The notes under the pieces are model-generated. The model ran no database searches. It was not told the DNA's origin and was given only the letters and a program-made list of their open reading frames with translations. A program made the position numbers and the translations under genes. From Paludibaculum sp. (lineage in GTDB: Bacteria; Acidobacteriota; Terriglobia; Bryobacterales; Bryobacteraceae): DNA of 64,000 nt. The stretch is taken from assembly GCA_029973955.1 (NCBI GenBank), contig JARKQJ010000135.1, positions 23,487 to 87,486 on the forward strand. The letters are read 5' to 3'. This document shows positions 20,312-27,984 of this stretch, piece after piece. How positions within the stretch are numbered: the stretch's first letter is position 1; each line of letters opens with the position of its first letter.

Positions 20312-21198
20312 CTGCTCCAGCGCTGGGTGAGGCCGGAAAAGCTGTCGATGCGGCGGTCGCGGAAGAAGGGCCAGTTGCGGCGGGTGTCTTCGGCGCGGCG
20401 GCGGTCGCATTCCACGACGAGAATCTCTTCCTGATCGGCTGAGGCTTCGGCGAGGACGACGCCGAAGGGGTCCGAAACAAAGCTGTGGCCCCAGAACTCG
20501 AGGCCGGCGCCGGCCGGGCCTTCGAAGCCGACGCGGTTGACGGCCGCCACGTAGACTCCGTTGGCGATGGCGTGGGCGCGCTGTGCGGTGCGCCAGGCGT
20601 CGAGCTGCGCGGCACCGTTTTCCGCCTTCTCCGACGGGTGCCAGCCAATGGCGGTGGGGTAGAAGAGAACGTCGGCGCCCTGCATGGCGGTGAGGCGGGC
20701 GGCCTCCGGGTACCACTGGTCCCAGCAGATGAGCACGCCGATGCGGCCGAAGGGGGTGTCGAAGTTTTTGTAACCGAGATCGCCGGGGGTGAAGTAGTAC
20801 TTCTCGAAGTAGAGCGGGTCCTCGGGGATGTGCATCTTGCGGTAGATGCCGGCCAGCGAGCCGTCGGCGTTCAGGATGGCGGCGGTGTTGTGATGGAGGC
20901 CGGCGGCGCGGCGTTCGAAGAGGCTGGCGACGACGACGATGCCGAGTTCCCTGGCGATGCGGCCCACGGCCTCGCTGGAAGGTCCGGGGATGGGTTCGGC
21001 CAGGTCAAAGAGTTCGGCGCTCTCTTCGCGGCAGAAATACTGCGAACGGAAGAGTTCCTGGAGGCAGACGATCTGTGAGCCGCGGGCGGCGGCTTCGCGG
21101 AGTTTGGCGATGGCCTTTTCGAGGTTTTCCCGCGGGTCGGGAGAGCAACTCATCTGAACGAGGCCAATGCGGAACTTTTCGCTCACTTTGCCGGACAT
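20308..21198 (-). CDS. Carbon-nitrogen hydrolase, N-carbamoylputrescine amidase-like
   Basis: 296 residues, matching N-carbamoylputrescine amidase (AguB). The nitrilase catalytic triad is visible: Glu in [11 protein letters not shown], Lys in [10 protein letters not shown] and Cys in [22 protein letters not shown] and the [12 protein letters not shown] context are typical of AguB, which releases putrescine, CO2 and ammonia in arginine-to-polyamine conversion. No agmatine deiminase gene is adjacent, so the pathway is not confirmed here. An alternative GTG start lies four codons in. It is divergent from the M14 peptidase with only 16 bases between starts. Confidence 0.88.
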
Positions 21199-21214
21199 AC
21201 TACGATTGTTTCAT

Positions 21215-23692
21215 ATGCTCCTCCGCCGCCGCGCCCTGCTCCTGTTCGCGCCAGCCCTGCTACTAGCCGCGCCCCCCACTCCGAAAGAGCACTTCGGGTT
21301 TACGCCGGGCGACAACTACAAGCTGGCGAACTACGAGGAAGTGGCGTCGTACTTCCGCAAGCTGGCGGCGTCGTCGGACCGGATTCGCGTGGAGGAGTTC
21401 GGCCGCAGCAGCGAAGGCCGGCCGATGCTGGCGGCCTTCATCAGCTCGCCGGAGAATCTGAAGCAGCTCGAAAAGTACAAGCAGATCAACCGCCGTTTGG
21501 CGCTGGGGGAGGCCACGCCGGAGGAGGCGCGCAAGCTGGCGGCCGAGGGCAAGGCGATCGTGTGGATCGACTCCGGGCTGCACGCCACCGAAGTGGCGCC
21601 GGTGCAGCACGCGCCGCACCTGGCCTACAAGATGCTCACGGACGAGAGCGAAGAGGTGCGCCGCATTCGCCAGAACGTGATCCTGGTGCAGGTGCCGGTG
21701 ATCAACCCCGACGGGCTGGACATGACCGCCAACTGGTACCGCCAGAACGTAGGCACGCCTTTTGAACTGGCGCCGCTGCCGGGGCTCTATCAGAAGTACT
21801 CCGGCCACGACAACAACCGCGACTATTTCATGCTGAACCTGCCGGAGACGCGCCACGTTTCGCGGATGCTCTTCCAGGAGTGGTTTCCGCAGATCGTCTA
21901 CAACCAGCACCAGGTGGCGCCGTTCCCGGCGCGCATTTTCATCCCGCCCTATGCCGAGCCGCTGAACCCCAACATCCCCGCGCCGGTGATGGAGGGCATC
22001 AACGGCATTGGCGCCGCTATGAAGGAGCGTTTCGCGCGCGAGAACAAGCCCGGCGCCGTCTCCTACATCAGCTTCGACGGCTGGTGGAACGGCGGGCTGC
22101 GCTCCGTGCCGGCATTCCACAACATGCACGGCATCCTGACCGAAACGGCGCTCTACCAGTACGCCACGCCGCACGAGTACAAGCCCTCCGAGCTGCCAGA
22201 GCGCTTCTCCACCGGCATCCCGACCAAGGAGGCGACGGTGTTCTACCAGAAGCCGTGGCTGGGCGGCCGCTGGGCGCTCATGGACGCCGTCGAGTACATG
22301 CTGACGGCGGATTTCGCGATTCTCGACCTGGCTGCGTCCCGCCCGTCGCACTACCTCTACAAGGCCTGGGAGATGGCCACGGCCAACATCGAAGCCGGCA
22401 GAAAGGGCGGCCCGTATGCGTACGTGGTGCCGGCCGATCAGAGCGACGCATGGACCGCGGCGCAGATGCTCGAGCGGCTGCACGGCTCCGGCGTGGCGGT
22501 GCAGCGGGCCTCGGCTCCATTTCAGGCGAACGGCAAATCGTACCCGGCGGGCGCGTGGATCGTGCCCGCGTCGCAGGCGTTCCGCTCTTACGTGGTGGAC
22601 CTGCTGGAGCCGCAGAAGTACCCCGAGCTGCGCAGCGGCACCACGGGTCCGGTGAAGCGGCCGTACGACCTGGCCGGCTGGACGCTCTCCTACCAGATGA
22701 ACGTGCAGGTGGAACGGATCGAGAAGCCCTTCGCCGCTCAGACTGAGCCATTGTCGGAGATCGTCTCGCCGGCGCCGGTGCTGGACGCGAGGCAGAACTC
22801 GGCGTTCCTGGCGATTGCCGCGGCACAGAAGAGCGGGCAGGCTGTGTATCGCGCCTCCGACGGCGCGCTGGTGACGGCGAAGCCCGCCTCGGGCTGGTTC
22901 ATCGAGAAGCCGCGCGTGGCCGTCTACCAGCCGTGGACGGCGAACATGGACACCGGTTGGACGCGCTGGGTCTTGGACCGCTTTGAGGTGCCGTCCGCCG
23001 AACTGCGCAACGACGAAGTGCGGAAGGGCCACCTGCGCGCGCGATACGACGTGATCATCCTGGCGCAGCAATCAATGGCGTCGATTCTGCACGGCGTGCG
23101 GGACGGCGAGTTCCAGGGCCGGGCGGGCGGCGAAACGCCCAGTCGGCAGAGGCCGGAGTACACGGGCGGCATGGGGCTGGAGGGCGCGCGGGAGCTGCAG
23201 CAGTTCGTGGAGCAGGGCGGGACGCTGATCGCGATCGATACGGCCACGGAGTTGCCGATGACGCTGTTCCCGATCGGCGTGCGCGGCGTGCTGCGGGGCG
23301 GGGAAGCGGAGGGCGCCGGCGGCTGGTCGTGCCCCGGATCCGTGCTGCGCATCACCACCGATCCGGCGCACCCGGCGGCGTTCGGCATGCCGAAGGAGAC
23401 CTATGCGACCTCCACCGGCGGTCAGGGATTCGAGATCACCGTGCTGCCGGAGCTGAACAAAGGCGAGCGTGAGGTGAAGGCCTTCGCGTGGTACGCGCGG
23501 CAGAACCTGCTGGCCAGCGGCTGGCTGACCGGCGAGCGGGTGATGGCCGGCAAGCCGGCGGCGGTGGAAGCAAGGCTGGGCGAGGGCAAGGTGGTGCTGT
23601 TCGGCTTCCGGCCGCAGTTCCGCGGGCAGACGTTCGGCACGTTCAAGCTGCTGTTGAACGAGATCTACCAGAGCGCCGCCCGGCCGCTGTAG
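21215..23692 (+). CDS. Secreted M14-family zinc carboxypeptidase-like metallopeptidase (first copy)
   Basis: 825 residues. The start chosen is the ATG giving MLLRRRALLLFAPALLLAAPP, a clear signal peptide; the track start 16 codons upstream lies within the opposing gene. The M14 zinc site is HATE (SGLHATEVA) plus the later His in YNQHQVAPFPAR, with GHDNNRD between them and the catalytic Glu in GILTETALYQ. About 400 further residues follow, ending in a Rossmann-like, glutamine-amidotransferase-resembling region. It is clearly paralogous to the gene at 46417-48807. Probably a periplasmic peptidase; substrate unknown. Confidence 0.88.
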   Translation: MLLRRRALLLFAPALLLAAPPTPKEHFGFTPGDNYKLANYEEVASYFRKLAASSDRIRVEEFGRSSEGRPMLAAFISSPENLKQLEKYKQINRRLALGEATPEEARKLAAEGKAIVWIDSGLHATEVAPVQHAPHLAYKMLTDESEEVRRIRQNVILVQVPVINPDGLDMTANWYRQNVGTPFELAPLPGLYQKYSGHDNNRDYFMLNLPETRHVSRMLFQEWFPQIVYNQHQVAPFPARIFIPPYAEPLNPNIPAPVMEGINGIGAAMKERFARENKPGAVSYISFDGWWNGGLRSVPAFHNMHGILTETALYQYATPHEYKPSELPERFSTGIPTKEATVFYQKPWLGGRWALMDAVEYMLTADFAILDLAASRPSHYLYKAWEMATANIEAGRKGGPYAYVVPADQSDAWTAAQMLERLHGSGVAVQRASAPFQANGKSYPAGAWIVPASQAFRSYVVDLLEPQKYPELRSGTTGPVKRPYDLAGWTLSYQMNVQVERIEKPFAAQTEPLSEIVSPAPVLDARQNSAFLAIAAAQKSGQAVYRASDGALVTAKPASGWFIEKPRVAVYQPWTANMDTGWTRWVLDRFEVPSAELRNDEVRKGHLRARYDVIILAQQSMASILHGVRDGEFQGRAGGETPSRQRPEYTGGMGLEGARELQQFVEQGGTLIAIDTATELPMTLFPIGVRGVLRGGEAEGAGGWSCPGSVLRITTDPAHPAAFGMPKETYATSTGGQGFEITVLPELNKGEREVKAFAWYARQNLLASGWLTGERVMAGKPAAVEARLGEGKVVLFGFRPQFRGQTFGTFKLLLNEIYQSAARPL

Positions 23693-23755
23693 AGGCCGAC
23701 CCGGAAGAGCGGCTCCTGTTTCGCCATACCGGTTGTTGATACAATCCCGATTTCT

Positions 23756-25651
23756 ATGGAAATCGCGCGGATGTGTGCCGACAATTTGTTGTGGGAATTG
23801 GGTGTGGCAGTACTGAGTTTGGCAATATCGCTTCGTTTCCGTTCTTGGGCGATGCGATTGCCGCTGTTTCTCTCATTTCACATCACACTCGGAGGACTCA
23901 CCGCGGCATTGTTCTCATTCGCCGGTTGGAATACGGCGGCAGCGTATCGCAGCGCGGCGGCAGTCTATCTGCTGGCTGGCGTTGCCATGGGTGAATTCAG
24001 CCCGTTTTGGCGCCGGTTCGTGCGGCACCTGCGGAACTCGCCCGTCATGGTGTCGTGCTGCTTTGGGGGGGGGGGGCTTTTGGCGCTCTCGTTGCGTCCC
24101 TTGGAAGAGGGCGATTCACTGTATAACCTGCACTATGTCACGGGGTGGGTGAAGCATGCTTTCACGCCCTACACTTTTTCCTACAATTACGTTCCCTTTT
24201 GGGACCTTGGGGCAGTGCCAGCCCTGGTGCTGACCAGGAGCGACTACTTCTTCTGGTTCCATGCGCTGCAACCTGTTTTGCTGTTGGCCGCCGGGCTGTG
24301 GCGGATTTCGAGAGAACTGCAGTTGCCATCTCGAATGGCCGGGTGGACTATCGCCGCAGTGTGTACGTTTCCCCATCTGTGGCTTGGACCGAGCGGGGTA
24401 TCGACGAATAAGAACGATATGATTCACGCCGCAGGGTATGCGCTGCTGGCGCTGGTTGCCGCGCGTTGGGCGCGTGGCAAAACAGGGTGGGAAAACGTGG
24501 TTTGTGCCGGAATGGGGGCGATGTTCGTCTCAGTGAAGGGGAGTGGACCCGTGATGCTGATCGCGGCCGCGGTGGCCGTGAGCGTGACGGCGTGGCATTG
24601 GATCAGGCGCAATCCGGGCAAGACGGCTTGGTCGATTGGTGTTATGGCCCTCATCTGGTTCGCCGGCGCCGGGCACTACTATTTGCACAACTACCTGGTC
24701 TATGCGAATCCGGTCTATCCGTACCAGGTGAATCTCGGGCCGCTTCATCTGCCCGGCCGTGCGGATCAAAGCGCCACCTCCATTGCGTATAGCTTGCACG
24801 ACCCGGACGTGTACCGGTTTCTCTTCCTGCCGGAAGGCGGCCTTTCTCCTGCCGGCACGCTGTTTCCCGTGGTGCTGCCGGCGATTCTCGGATGCAGCCT
24901 CGTCTGGGCCCTGGGCGCATTGAAACGCAAACGCTGCGGGGTGGCGCAAGCCTTGGGCATTTTTCAAGTGCTGGCGTGGGCGGTGTACTTTCGCTCTGTT
25001 TACAGCGCCAGCGGCGCCCCGGGGGATTTGGCGTTCCTTCGGAACGACCTGAACAGTACGCGCTACGTCGAAGGTCCCCTTCTGGTTGGGATGCTCAGCC
25101 TCGTCTGGCTGCTTCATCGTTGGAGAGTGCCCCACGGAGTCATTTACGCACTGCTTGCTGTGCAGGCGCTGGGCTGCGCAGCGATTCTCGGGCGCCGCGC
25201 CCCCGACCTTCCGTGGGTGGCCATCGCCTGCTGCGGTGGCGCTCTGGCGTTGAGCGCCGCCTGCTTTCGCGGAAAGATGGCCGCCTTCGTTGCCGCCGCC
25301 GTGGTCATTGCCAGCATGCCTGCCGGTACGTTTCTGGTGGAACGGCGCCGTCCTCTTCTGGCTCAGCAGTTGCAACCTCTCTACTTGCCGCTTTACGATT
25401 TGCCCCCTCGCGAGGTCTTCTATGTCCTGGAAGATGAATTCAGTCCACAGACCTGTTGGCATTGGTTGATGCAAGGCCGCCGGCTGCAGCACAGTTGGGC
25501 ATCCGGAGGACGGGATGTCCTGGCGGCCAGGGTGCGCAAACCCGACTATGTAGCATGGGTACGGCGCTCCCCGGATGAGGCTCCGATGAATCTGCCGGAC
25601 TTCGAAGTGCTGGTGGAGACGCCCCGCGGGCAGCTGTTGAAAAGAAGGTGA
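23756..25651 (+). CDS. Multi-pass membrane protein, GT-C glycosyltransferase-like
   Basis: 631 residues with roughly a dozen hydrophobic helices and a soluble C-terminal tail (about 545-631). The loop after the fourth helix, EEGDSLYNLHYVTGWVKH, resembles the acidic first periplasmic loop of GT-C polyprenyl-phosphate-sugar transferases, but no full family signature is seen. Codons 104-107 are an uninterrupted 12-G tract encoding four glycines. Base composition is visibly less GC-rich, with mixed third positions unlike the neighbours, suggesting acquisition by transfer. It stands alone, with 63 bases before and 73 after. Confidence 0.65.
   Translation: MEIARMCADNLLWELGVAVLSLAISLRFRSWAMRLPLFLSFHITLGGLTAALFSFAGWNTAAAYRSAAAVYLLAGVAMGEFSPFWRRFVRHLRNSPVMVSCCFGGGGLLALSLRPLEEGDSLYNLHYVTGWVKHAFTPYTFSYNYVPFWDLGAVPALVLTRSDYFFWFHALQPVLLLAAGLWRISRELQLPSRMAGWTIAAVCTFPHLWLGPSGVSTNKNDMIHAAGYALLALVAARWARGKTGWENVVCAGMGAMFVSVKGSGPVMLIAAAVAVSVTAWHWIRRNPGKTAWSIGVMALIWFAGAGHYYLHNYLVYANPVYPYQVNLGPLHLPGRADQSATSIAYSLHDPDVYRFLFLPEGGLSPAGTLFPVVLPAILGCSLVWALGALKRKRCGVAQALGIFQVLAWAVYFRSVYSASGAPGDLAFLRNDLNSTRYVEGPLLVGMLSLVWLLHRWRVPHGVIYALLAVQALGCAAILGRRAPDLPWVAIACCGGALALSAACFRGKMAAFVAAAVVIASMPAGTFLVERRRPLLAQQLQPLYLPLYDLPPREVFYVLEDEFSPQTCWHWLMQGRRLQHSWASGGRDVLAARVRKPDYVAWVRRSPDEAPMNLPDFEVLVETPRGQLLKRR
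24065..24076 (+). repeat. 12-base G homopolymer inside a coding sequence
   Basis: Twelve consecutive G residues in frame (four GGG Gly codons) in the membrane-protein gene, between TGCTGCTTT and CTTTTG. Gain or loss of one or two bases would shift the frame about one sixth of the way into the protein. Tracts of this length are classic slipped-strand sites. Confidence 0.95.
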
Positions 25652-25724
25652 ATCCGGCGCGGTCGCTGTAGAGCTTGTTACATTTGCGCCGGAACAGATC
25701 GCGGACGTCGGTGTCTGCAATGGC

Positions 25725-26483
25725 ATGACGGCCGCAATTCTGCTCTGGCTGCTGCTGGCGCCGGGTGACTCCGCCTGGCAGTCGTTCTCCGCCTGGTTCG
25801 CAAGGGAGGGGGTGCCCGGCGCACCGAACGACGTGCTGAAGGCGTACGCGGCGCAGTTGAAGAGCGCCGGCGTGGCGGATGCGGAGGCGCGGGTGGCGGA
25901 GGTCCGCAGCTACATCGCGGCGCATCCGAAGGAAGCTCTGGCGCTGCACTTCGACCGCATCTACACCTGGAAAGACGCGCCATTCACGCGCGAGCCCAGT
26001 GGGTTTGTAAAGAAGATCGCCGCCACGCGCAAGCCCGGCCGCGCGCTGGATATCGCCATGGGGCAGGGGCGGAACTCGATCTGGCTGGCAAAGAACGGCT
26101 GGACGGTGTCGGGCTACGACCTGTCGGAAGAAGCGCTGCGGCAGGCGGCGGCCTTGGCGCGCGAGGCGCGGGTGAGCCTCGACATCAGGCGCTCCACGCA
26201 CGAGGAGTTCGACCTGGGCCGCGAGCAATGGGACCTGATCGTGATGTGCTACGCCTTTACGAACCTGAGCGACGAGGCGTATATGCAGCGGGTCTACGAT
26301 TCACTCAAAGCCGGCGGATTGCTGGTGATCGACGGTTTCGGCGGCGCGCCGCCGACGCAGGTGAACCCGGTGCTGAAGCACCTGATGAACTACCATGTGC
26401 TGTACTTCGAAGACCTGCCGGGCGTAGCGGATTGGGGTGGGAGGACCATGCCGTTGAACCGCATGGCCCTCGAGAAACGGTAG
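25725..26483 (+). CDS. Class I SAM-dependent methyltransferase with an export-like N-terminus
   Basis: 252 residues. The SAM-binding motif I is ALDIAMGQGRNSIWLA, followed by VSGYDLSEEAL (acidic ribose-binding residue) and WDLIVMCYAF, a TehB/UbiE-like class I methyltransferase covering about 85-230. The first 18 residues (MTAAILLWLLLAPGDSAW) form a hydrophobic stretch with a plausible cleavage site but no positive charge. This is odd for an enzyme needing cytoplasmic SAM. A later GTG could give a soluble form. Substrate unknown. Only four bases separate its stop from the convergent xylB stop. Confidence 0.75.
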   Translation: MTAAILLWLLLAPGDSAWQSFSAWFAREGVPGAPNDVLKAYAAQLKSAGVADAEARVAEVRSYIAAHPKEALALHFDRIYTWKDAPFTREPSGFVKKIAATRKPGRALDIAMGQGRNSIWLAKNGWTVSGYDLSEEALRQAAALAREARVSLDIRRSTHEEFDLGREQWDLIVMCYAFTNLSDEAYMQRVYDSLKAGGLLVIDGFGGAPPTQVNPVLKHLMNYHVLYFEDLPGVADWGGRTMPLNRMALEKR

Positions 26484-26487
26484 GCGC

Positions 26488-27984
26488 TCAGCCCATCTGG
26501 TTAATGAGCCCGAAGACGGGCTTGAGCGAGGGGTAGAGCACGGTGTAGAGTTCGTAGCCGCGCTGGTACTGCGCCGCTTCGTGCACGCGGGGCACCTTGG
26601 ATTCGACTTCCTTCACGGCCGCGTCGCAAACCTCTTCCACGCTCTTGTACTCGCCGCAACCGGCCAGCGCCAGCAGCGCGGCGCCGTAGGCGGAGCCGTC
26701 GCTGTTTTCGAGCGTGGTGATGCTGCGGTGGAAGACATCGGCCAGGATCTGGCGCCAGAAGGCGCTCCTGGCGCCGCCGCCGGAAGCGCGCACGGTGTTC
26801 ACTTCCACGTTCATGCCTTCGATGACGCCCAGGCAGTCGCGCAGGCTGTAGCTGACGCCTTCGACGATGGCGCGGATCAGTTCGGGCCGGGCATGCTTGG
26901 CGGTGAGGCCCACCCAGCCGCCGCGGGCGATGGGGTCGAGATGCGGCGTGCGCTCGCCCATCAAATAGGGCAGCCAGTAGAGGCCCTGGGAGAGCGGAGC
27001 GGCCTTTTGTGCCTCGGCTATCAGTGAGTCATATTCGGCGCCGGGGGCGAAGTTGTTGCGGAACCACTGCAGGCTGAGGCCGGCGCCCTGGGTGACGCCC
27101 ATCACGTGCCACTTGCCGCGGACGGCGTGGCAGAAGGTGTGGACGCGGCCTTCGGGGTCGTACTGCGGGCGGTCGAGGTAGGAGAACACGACGCCGGAGG
27201 TGCCGATGGTGCAACTGGCCACGCCCGGCTTGACGATGCCGTTGCCGATGCCGCTGGCGGCCTGGTCGCCGGCGCCGCCCACCACGGGCGTGCCTTCCTT
27301 GAGCCCGGTGGCCTTGGCGGCGGCCTTGCTGATGGCGCCAGTGACGTCAGCGGATTCCTTCAGCTCGGGCAGCAGCGAAGCGTCCAGCTTGAGGCGCTCG
27401 ATCATGGGTTTGGACCAGCGGCGGGTGACCACGTCCAGCAGGCCCGTGCCGGAGGCGTCGCTCACTTCTGTGGCGTGGACGCCGGTGAGCATGAAGCGCA
27501 CGTAGTCCTTGGGCAGCAGGAACTTTTTGGCCTTTTCGAAATTGGCGGGCTCGTTGTCGCGCACCCACAGCAGTTTGGGTAGCGTGAAGCCGGTGAGCAT
27601 GGGATTGGCCGTATGAGCCACCACGTTGTTCCTGCCCACGGCGGCGTTGATGGAGTCCACCTGCGCCTGGCTGCGCTGGTCGCACCAGATGAGCGAGGGG
27701 CGCACCACGTTGTTGTCGGCGTCGAGCAGCACCAGGCCGTGCATCTGCCCGGAGAGGCCCACCGCGTTCACCTGATCGCCCTTCACGCCGGCCTGTTTGA
27801 GCACGCCCTGGATGGCCTTCTGCGCGGCGTCCCACCAGTTCTCGGGACGCTGCTCGGCCCACAGGGGCCGCTCCATGGTGATGTCGTCGTGCGGCGCGGT
27901 GAAGCCGGCAGCCACCTTGCCCTGTGCGTCCACCAGCAGCGCTCTGCTGCCGCCGGTTCCGATGTCGATGCCAAGCCAATACAT
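26488..27984 (-). CDS. xylB: Xylulokinase (FGGY family)
   Basis: 498 residues, the usual length. FGGY kinase features: the N-terminal phosphate loop GIDIGTGGSRALLVD, the xylulokinase GLSGQMHGLVLLD, catalytic Asp region VVGGAGDQAASGIGNG, and the C-terminal adenosine motif RASGGGARSAFWRQI. It phosphorylates D-xylulose to xylulose 5-phosphate, feeding the pentose phosphate pathway. Its start is only five bases after the stop of the upstream ROK kinase, so the two form an operon. No xylose isomerase xylA lies nearby. Confidence 0.94.
   Translation of the reverse strand: MYWLGIDIGTGGSRALLVDAQGKVAAGFTAPHDDITMERPLWAEQRPENWWDAAQKAIQGVLKQAGVKGDQVNAVGLSGQMHGLVLLDADNNVVRPSLIWCDQRSQAQVDSINAAVGRNNVVAHTANPMLTGFTLPKLLWVRDNEPANFEKAKKFLLPKDYVRFMLTGVHATEVSDASGTGLLDVVTRRWSKPMIERLKLDASLLPELKESADVTGAISKAAAKATGLKEGTPVVGGAGDQAASGIGNGIVKPGVASCTIGTSGVVFSYLDRPQYDPEGRVHTFCHAVRGKWHVMGVTQGAGLSLQWFRNNFAPGAEYDSLIAEAQKAAPLSQGLYWLPYLMGERTPHLDPIARGGWVGLTAKHARPELIRAIVEGVSYSLRDCLGVIEGMNVEVNTVRASGGGARSAFWRQILADVFHRSITTLENSDGSAYGAALLALAGCGEYKSVEEVCDAAVKEVESKVPRVHEAAQYQRGYELYTVLYPSLKPVFGLINQMG

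Follow-up and report, generated by a model that had tools for sequence, protein, structure and literature searches.

This locus raises the question of whether a run of twelve G, located early in a gene for a membrane protein, acts as an on/off switch of that gene. Such a role had been proposed in an earlier note on this DNA, which described the run as a candidate phase-variable tract in a membrane glycosyltransferase-like gene and predicted that a slip of one base would truncate the encoded protein. The window, that is, the whole stretch of 64,000 nt that was analysed, belongs to a draft genome of the Bryobacteraceae (Acidobacteriota) that consists of 282 contigs and is 94% complete, its placement being derived from the names of relatives. 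The description of the tract itself proved to be accurate: it contains exactly 12 consecutive G, it is the longest homopolymer of the window (the next longest has 8 bases), and it forms four codons near the start of an intact ORF that begins with ATG (Table 1). It is located in a hydrophobic segment, directly before a conserved acidic motif.

Table 1. Features at the run-bearing locus (positions are those of the window; a dot marks a feature given no strand).
Feature	Position	Strand	Basis or remark
Left flank, M14 zinc carboxypeptidase-like gene	21167..23692	+	Found genus-wide
2.8-kb segment with both the run-bearing and the methyltransferase genes	23695..26483	.	Missing in the nearest relative, G008, which has 23 other bases there
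Intact 631-aa ORF, GT-C-type membrane glycosyltransferase-like protein	23756..25651	+	Homologues, predicted fold
12-G run	24065..24076	+	Codons 104-107 (GGG x4, Gly4), in-frame length
Conserved acidic motif, RP-type region	24098..24124	+	Alignment: P115, E118, D120 and S121 invariant
SAM-dependent methyltransferase gene, adjoining the run-bearing gene in the same segment	25725..26483	+	Pfam Methyltransf_25/11
Right flank, carbohydrate kinase (xylulokinase-like) gene	26488..27984	-	96% protein identity to sister; name from sequence

The reading frame at the run could be established by comparison with homologous proteins, which match the window protein in the same frame on both sides of it, with invariant N59 and Y64 before the run and the four invariant residues of the acidic motif after it. 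Since the homologues follow a single frame before and after, 12 G is the in-frame (ON) length. The possibility that translation starts downstream of the run, which would then be an untranslated leader, was ruled out, because the homologues align in frame from about residue 10. The predicted truncation was also confirmed by computation: a tract of 11 G would give a product of 131 aa and one of 13 G a product of 123 aa, while 10 and 14 G would give 122 and 132 aa, respectively, and the frame would be kept at 9 or 15 G. Reading past the run in either of the two other frames meets a stop codon within about 15 to 25 codons. As in a homopolymer phase-variable (contingency) locus, a change of one unit in the tract would switch the product, here from 631 aa to 123-131 aa. 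A switch would require such a position, just before a conserved motif, and such truncation upon slippage, and both count against the run being incidental. They favor a true contingency locus, in which slipped-strand mispairing would alter the number of G and, in this way, switch a GT-C glycosyltransferase and a cell-surface or exported glycan.

The nature of the product is relevant to this proposal. Sequence searches with the window protein against Pfam, NCBIfam, PHROGs and PDB gave no match, and the protein does not fall within a curated GT-C sequence family; its homologues, taken singly, match DUF2142 and PMT_2 weakly (one PMT_2 match at E 0.0037). A structure model built from 12 sequences reached a pTM of 0.81 and a pLDDT of 74, with low confidence around the run. 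ArnT (E 5.9e-4, probability 1.00) was the only PDB structure with a match below 0.001, at a TM-score of only 0.33, and DPY19, EmbC and Pmt4, all of them GT-C enzymes, appeared among the next structure matches, also with low TM-scores. The modelled fold suggests that the protein is likely, although not proven, to be a GT-C-like glycosyltransferase. The earlier characterization of the gene as membrane glycosyltransferase-like is supported by this GT-C-type predicted fold, with ArnT in first place, and the similarity to GT-C enzymes is a further argument for a switch. By analogy with these enzymes, in which such a motif is expected in the first large extracytoplasmic loop, the acidic motif, placed just after the run-bearing segment in a region where the model is poor, is likely to represent the predicted GT-C catalytic loop.

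A different picture emerged from the homologues at the position of the run. The orthologue comparison that had been suggested as a check was carried out, and the tract was present in 0 of the 15 homologues covering this position, in which G/C runs do not exceed 6 bases. An alignment-based search provided 12 relatives, and in none of them does the locus contain a G/C run of more than 7 bases; a search of genome contigs for close orthologues of the single protein found none. A tract kept with varying length among orthologues, which would have spoken for switching, was not observed in this comparison, whose closest member is only 43% identical. At the positions of the twelve G, this homologue has CTGGGGGCGGCG, which four point changes would convert into an all-G stretch; at such a distance, the route by which the run was formed is not directly visible in the aligned sequences. 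The lack of conservation also bears on the possibility that slippage occurs at the RNA level, with the polymerase or the ribosome slipping on the run so that a fixed fraction of the product would be full length or truncated while the DNA remains unchanged. Long homopolymers are slippery as templates in general. However, the homologues do not conserve this site, and the early stops in the other frames would leave no useful product, and we regard this explanation as very improbable.

The run-bearing gene and the adjoining methyltransferase gene form a segment that the nearest relative, the sister genome G008, does not have. In G008, the peptidase and kinase genes are directly adjacent, with flanks of 90-92% DNA identity and 23 bases between the matched flanks, and the methyltransferase gene is absent at the corresponding place. 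The protein is encoded in no other genome of the genus and, within the family, in 16 of 236 other genomes. The gene is thus sporadic and was probably acquired, the alternative being a loss in the sister. The ends of the segment share no direct repeat of more than 7 bases, and no mobile-element gene is found inside it. No surface-glycan cluster is visible around the run-bearing gene, a fact that argues against a switch of the kind proposed.

The rarity of the run was evaluated from the spectrum of G/C runs in a 400 kb sample of the same genome, where the frequency drops about five-fold per extra base, extrapolated to 6.5 Mb. Ordinary long runs fit the expectation (14 runs of at least 9 observed versus about 11 predicted), which speaks for an incidental run, and the excess is confined to the extreme tail, with three runs of at least 12 observed versus 0.07 predicted from composition. 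This tail, in which an effect of slippage or artefact would be noticed, is composed of the window run, one intergenic C12 and one C17 at a contig end. The twelve G therefore exceed what would be predicted from composition alone, although some of this excess falls where artefacts are expected. Codon usage points in the same direction: GGG represents 16% of the Gly codons genome-wide, and the probability of four consecutive GGG is 0.0007 at genome-wide usage, or 0.012 at the usage of the gene itself outside the run. Both the excess and the improbable spelling of Gly4 favor a switch, and the rarity of such a run weighs against an incidental origin, as does the fact that tracts of such a length, 12 G, are among those known to be hypermutable in other bacteria.

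If switching were a habit of this genome, further loci could be anticipated, and several tracts per genome with enrichment in surface genes would have supported it. This was not what was found. Among the 14 runs of at least 9 bases, 11 were inspected (all but three 9-base runs), and only those in the window gene and in hypF were convincingly coding; therefore, no set of contingency genes emerges from the inspected runs. Moreover, in six of the seven comparisons made between long runs of the genus and their close counterparts, the differences were substitutions and the length was unchanged. Thus, a G11 of the sister corresponds to GGGGGTGAAGG in its counterpart; the intergenic C12 of the window genome corresponds to CCAGCCTCCGCC in the sister; the C10 in hypF (L005:1501-1510, G000:C95), which is in frame in the acylphosphatase region, corresponds to CCCACCCGCC; and, in another species pair, a C12 and a G10 correspond to CCCCCGCCACCC and GGGGGTGGGG, respectively. 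The intergenic C12 of the window genome belongs to one copy of a tandem repeat (L020 around 1501-1512, G000:C206), and the adjacent copy has CCGCCCCCCGCC in its place, of equal length. A G14 in the sister tsaD (L103:2071-2084, G008:C232) replaces VRGAM-type codons and corresponds to GGTGCGGGGGGCGA in the window genome, the difference consisting of four changes, all to G, with the same length. Differences in length were seen at a C10 located after a stop codon in the window genome, whose counterpart is 2 bases shorter, and in the near-complete genome G007, where one G10 that is not within a clear gene has a related copy of another length; the latter genome also has one C9 that is conserved in a relative. 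The prevalence of substitutions without change in length argues against slippage as the usual origin, and, judging from these alignments, the runs of the genus look as if point changes or G-miscalls, and not slippage, had produced them. The case of tsaD is also difficult to reconcile with a switch. This gene is normally essential, and switching it would make no sense; its G14 is a likely G-miscall or else a strange local cluster of substitutions.

The latter observations raise the possibility that the run is a sequencing or assembly artefact, in which some non-G bases of a G-rich hydrophobic stretch were miscalled as G (for example, by two-channel chemistry) and the true sequence is mixed and contains no run of twelve G. 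In two-channel chemistry, G is unlabelled, and homopolymers are known to induce false indels and substitutions (PMC11140927). In line with this, 3 of the 14 long runs of the draft are no more than 15 bases away from a contig end (P = 8e-7), related drafts have many of their long runs next to N gaps or at contig ends, and all-to-G changes with no indel, comparable to those in tsaD, occur at other runs as well. In contrast, the window run is located far from the ends of its 87-kb contig, there is no N close to it and its frame is intact, and runs of 11 to 12 occur also in some more contiguous genomes. Substitution-only differences could not be accepted as proof of artefact, because coding constraint is also expected to preserve length and because these runs were chosen for being runs. 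Taken together, an artefact is a serious but rather doubtful explanation for the twelve G.

Poly-G sequences were also seen in another genus of the same order (L053, L054, L055, L056, L059, L060), in which several genomes gave hundreds of 11-G matches. Those inspected were mixed poly-G/poly-C, mostly beside N gaps or contig ends, which indicates that these particular drafts carry poly-G assembly artefacts. A biological origin for these huge numbers was dismissed, as the inspected cases lay beside N gaps, at contig ends or in low-complexity stretches adjoining these. A three-contig genome of the genus to which the window belongs has an almost pure poly-C of 501 bases (C224, G, C13, G, C262; L118:3773-4273, in G006:C1 from about 2469772), which is in frame and encodes poly-Pro where a TadG-like, VWA-domain protein has its N-terminal membrane segment. 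Either an assembly artefact or the inflation of a real C tract may account for it.

These observations can be integrated, with some hesitation, by assuming that the run is an isolated and incidental homopolymer and not a selected on/off switch, a reading to which we would give somewhat less than an even chance. It would have arisen in a GT-C-type gene that is sporadic and was probably acquired; there, a G-rich codon stretch in a variable hydrophobic segment would have been turned into an all-G one by point changes, leaving Gly4 where relatives mostly have Leu, Ala, Val or Pro. With 12 G in the tract, the gene is in frame and would be normally read. Provided that the run physically exists, occasional slippage may yield dead products of 122-132 aa as a passive consequence. 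Both the origin by substitution at this site and the absence of selection for switching are inferred. The proposal of a phase-variable locus is not supported, in view of the absence of the tract from homologues, of a set of similar loci and of a visible glycan cluster, and the genus runs, which differ mostly by substitutions and not in length, also oppose it. In addition, a search of a literature collection found no paper on phase variation in Acidobacteriota and no dedicated report of homopolymer glycan switching there. We therefore consider a true switch unlikely; should it exist, glycan phase variation by homopolymer slippage would occur in soil, free-living Acidobacteriota. To say that the feature is not real refers to the proposed switch, as the run itself is present in the assembly. 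A more general caution also follows: long G runs in drafts of this group often occur next to gaps or where contigs end, and what distinguishes them from close relatives is mainly changes to G; a lone run is therefore weak evidence for a contingency locus.

The comparison with known systems can be made at the level of the protein and of the tract. The window protein shares with GT-C glycosyltransferases (ArnT/GT83, DPY19, Emb, PMT) the predicted fold, and its conserved acidic motif may, as in these enzymes, occupy a loop that follows a membrane helix, but it has extra N-terminal helices before the motif and does not match Pfam, PHROGs or PDB by sequence. As for the tract, G-tract switching is known in surface-glycan genes of Campylobacter, and the frameshift indels documented in clinical isolates of Mycobacterium tuberculosis at a 7-G run of glpK provide a second precedent (PMC8355987; PMC11898584). 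The poly-G genes of C. jejuni (lipooligosaccharide, capsule, flagellar modification) resemble the window gene in having a pure G tract within an ORF, early truncation and a glycosyltransferase-like product. However, this organism has multiple phase-variable genes, whereas the window site is a single tract absent from homologues. Furthermore, C. jejuni has mainly G9 to G10 tracts, shows a deletion bias at G11 and longer, and lacks functional mismatch repair, all of which weighs against extending the precedent to 12 G here (PMC8355987). With glpK, the window gene has in common that a homopolymer interrupts coding sequence in a GC-rich genome, but its product is a membrane glycosyltransferase-like protein. 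The window site, therefore, resembles the C. jejuni and glpK systems in layout only.
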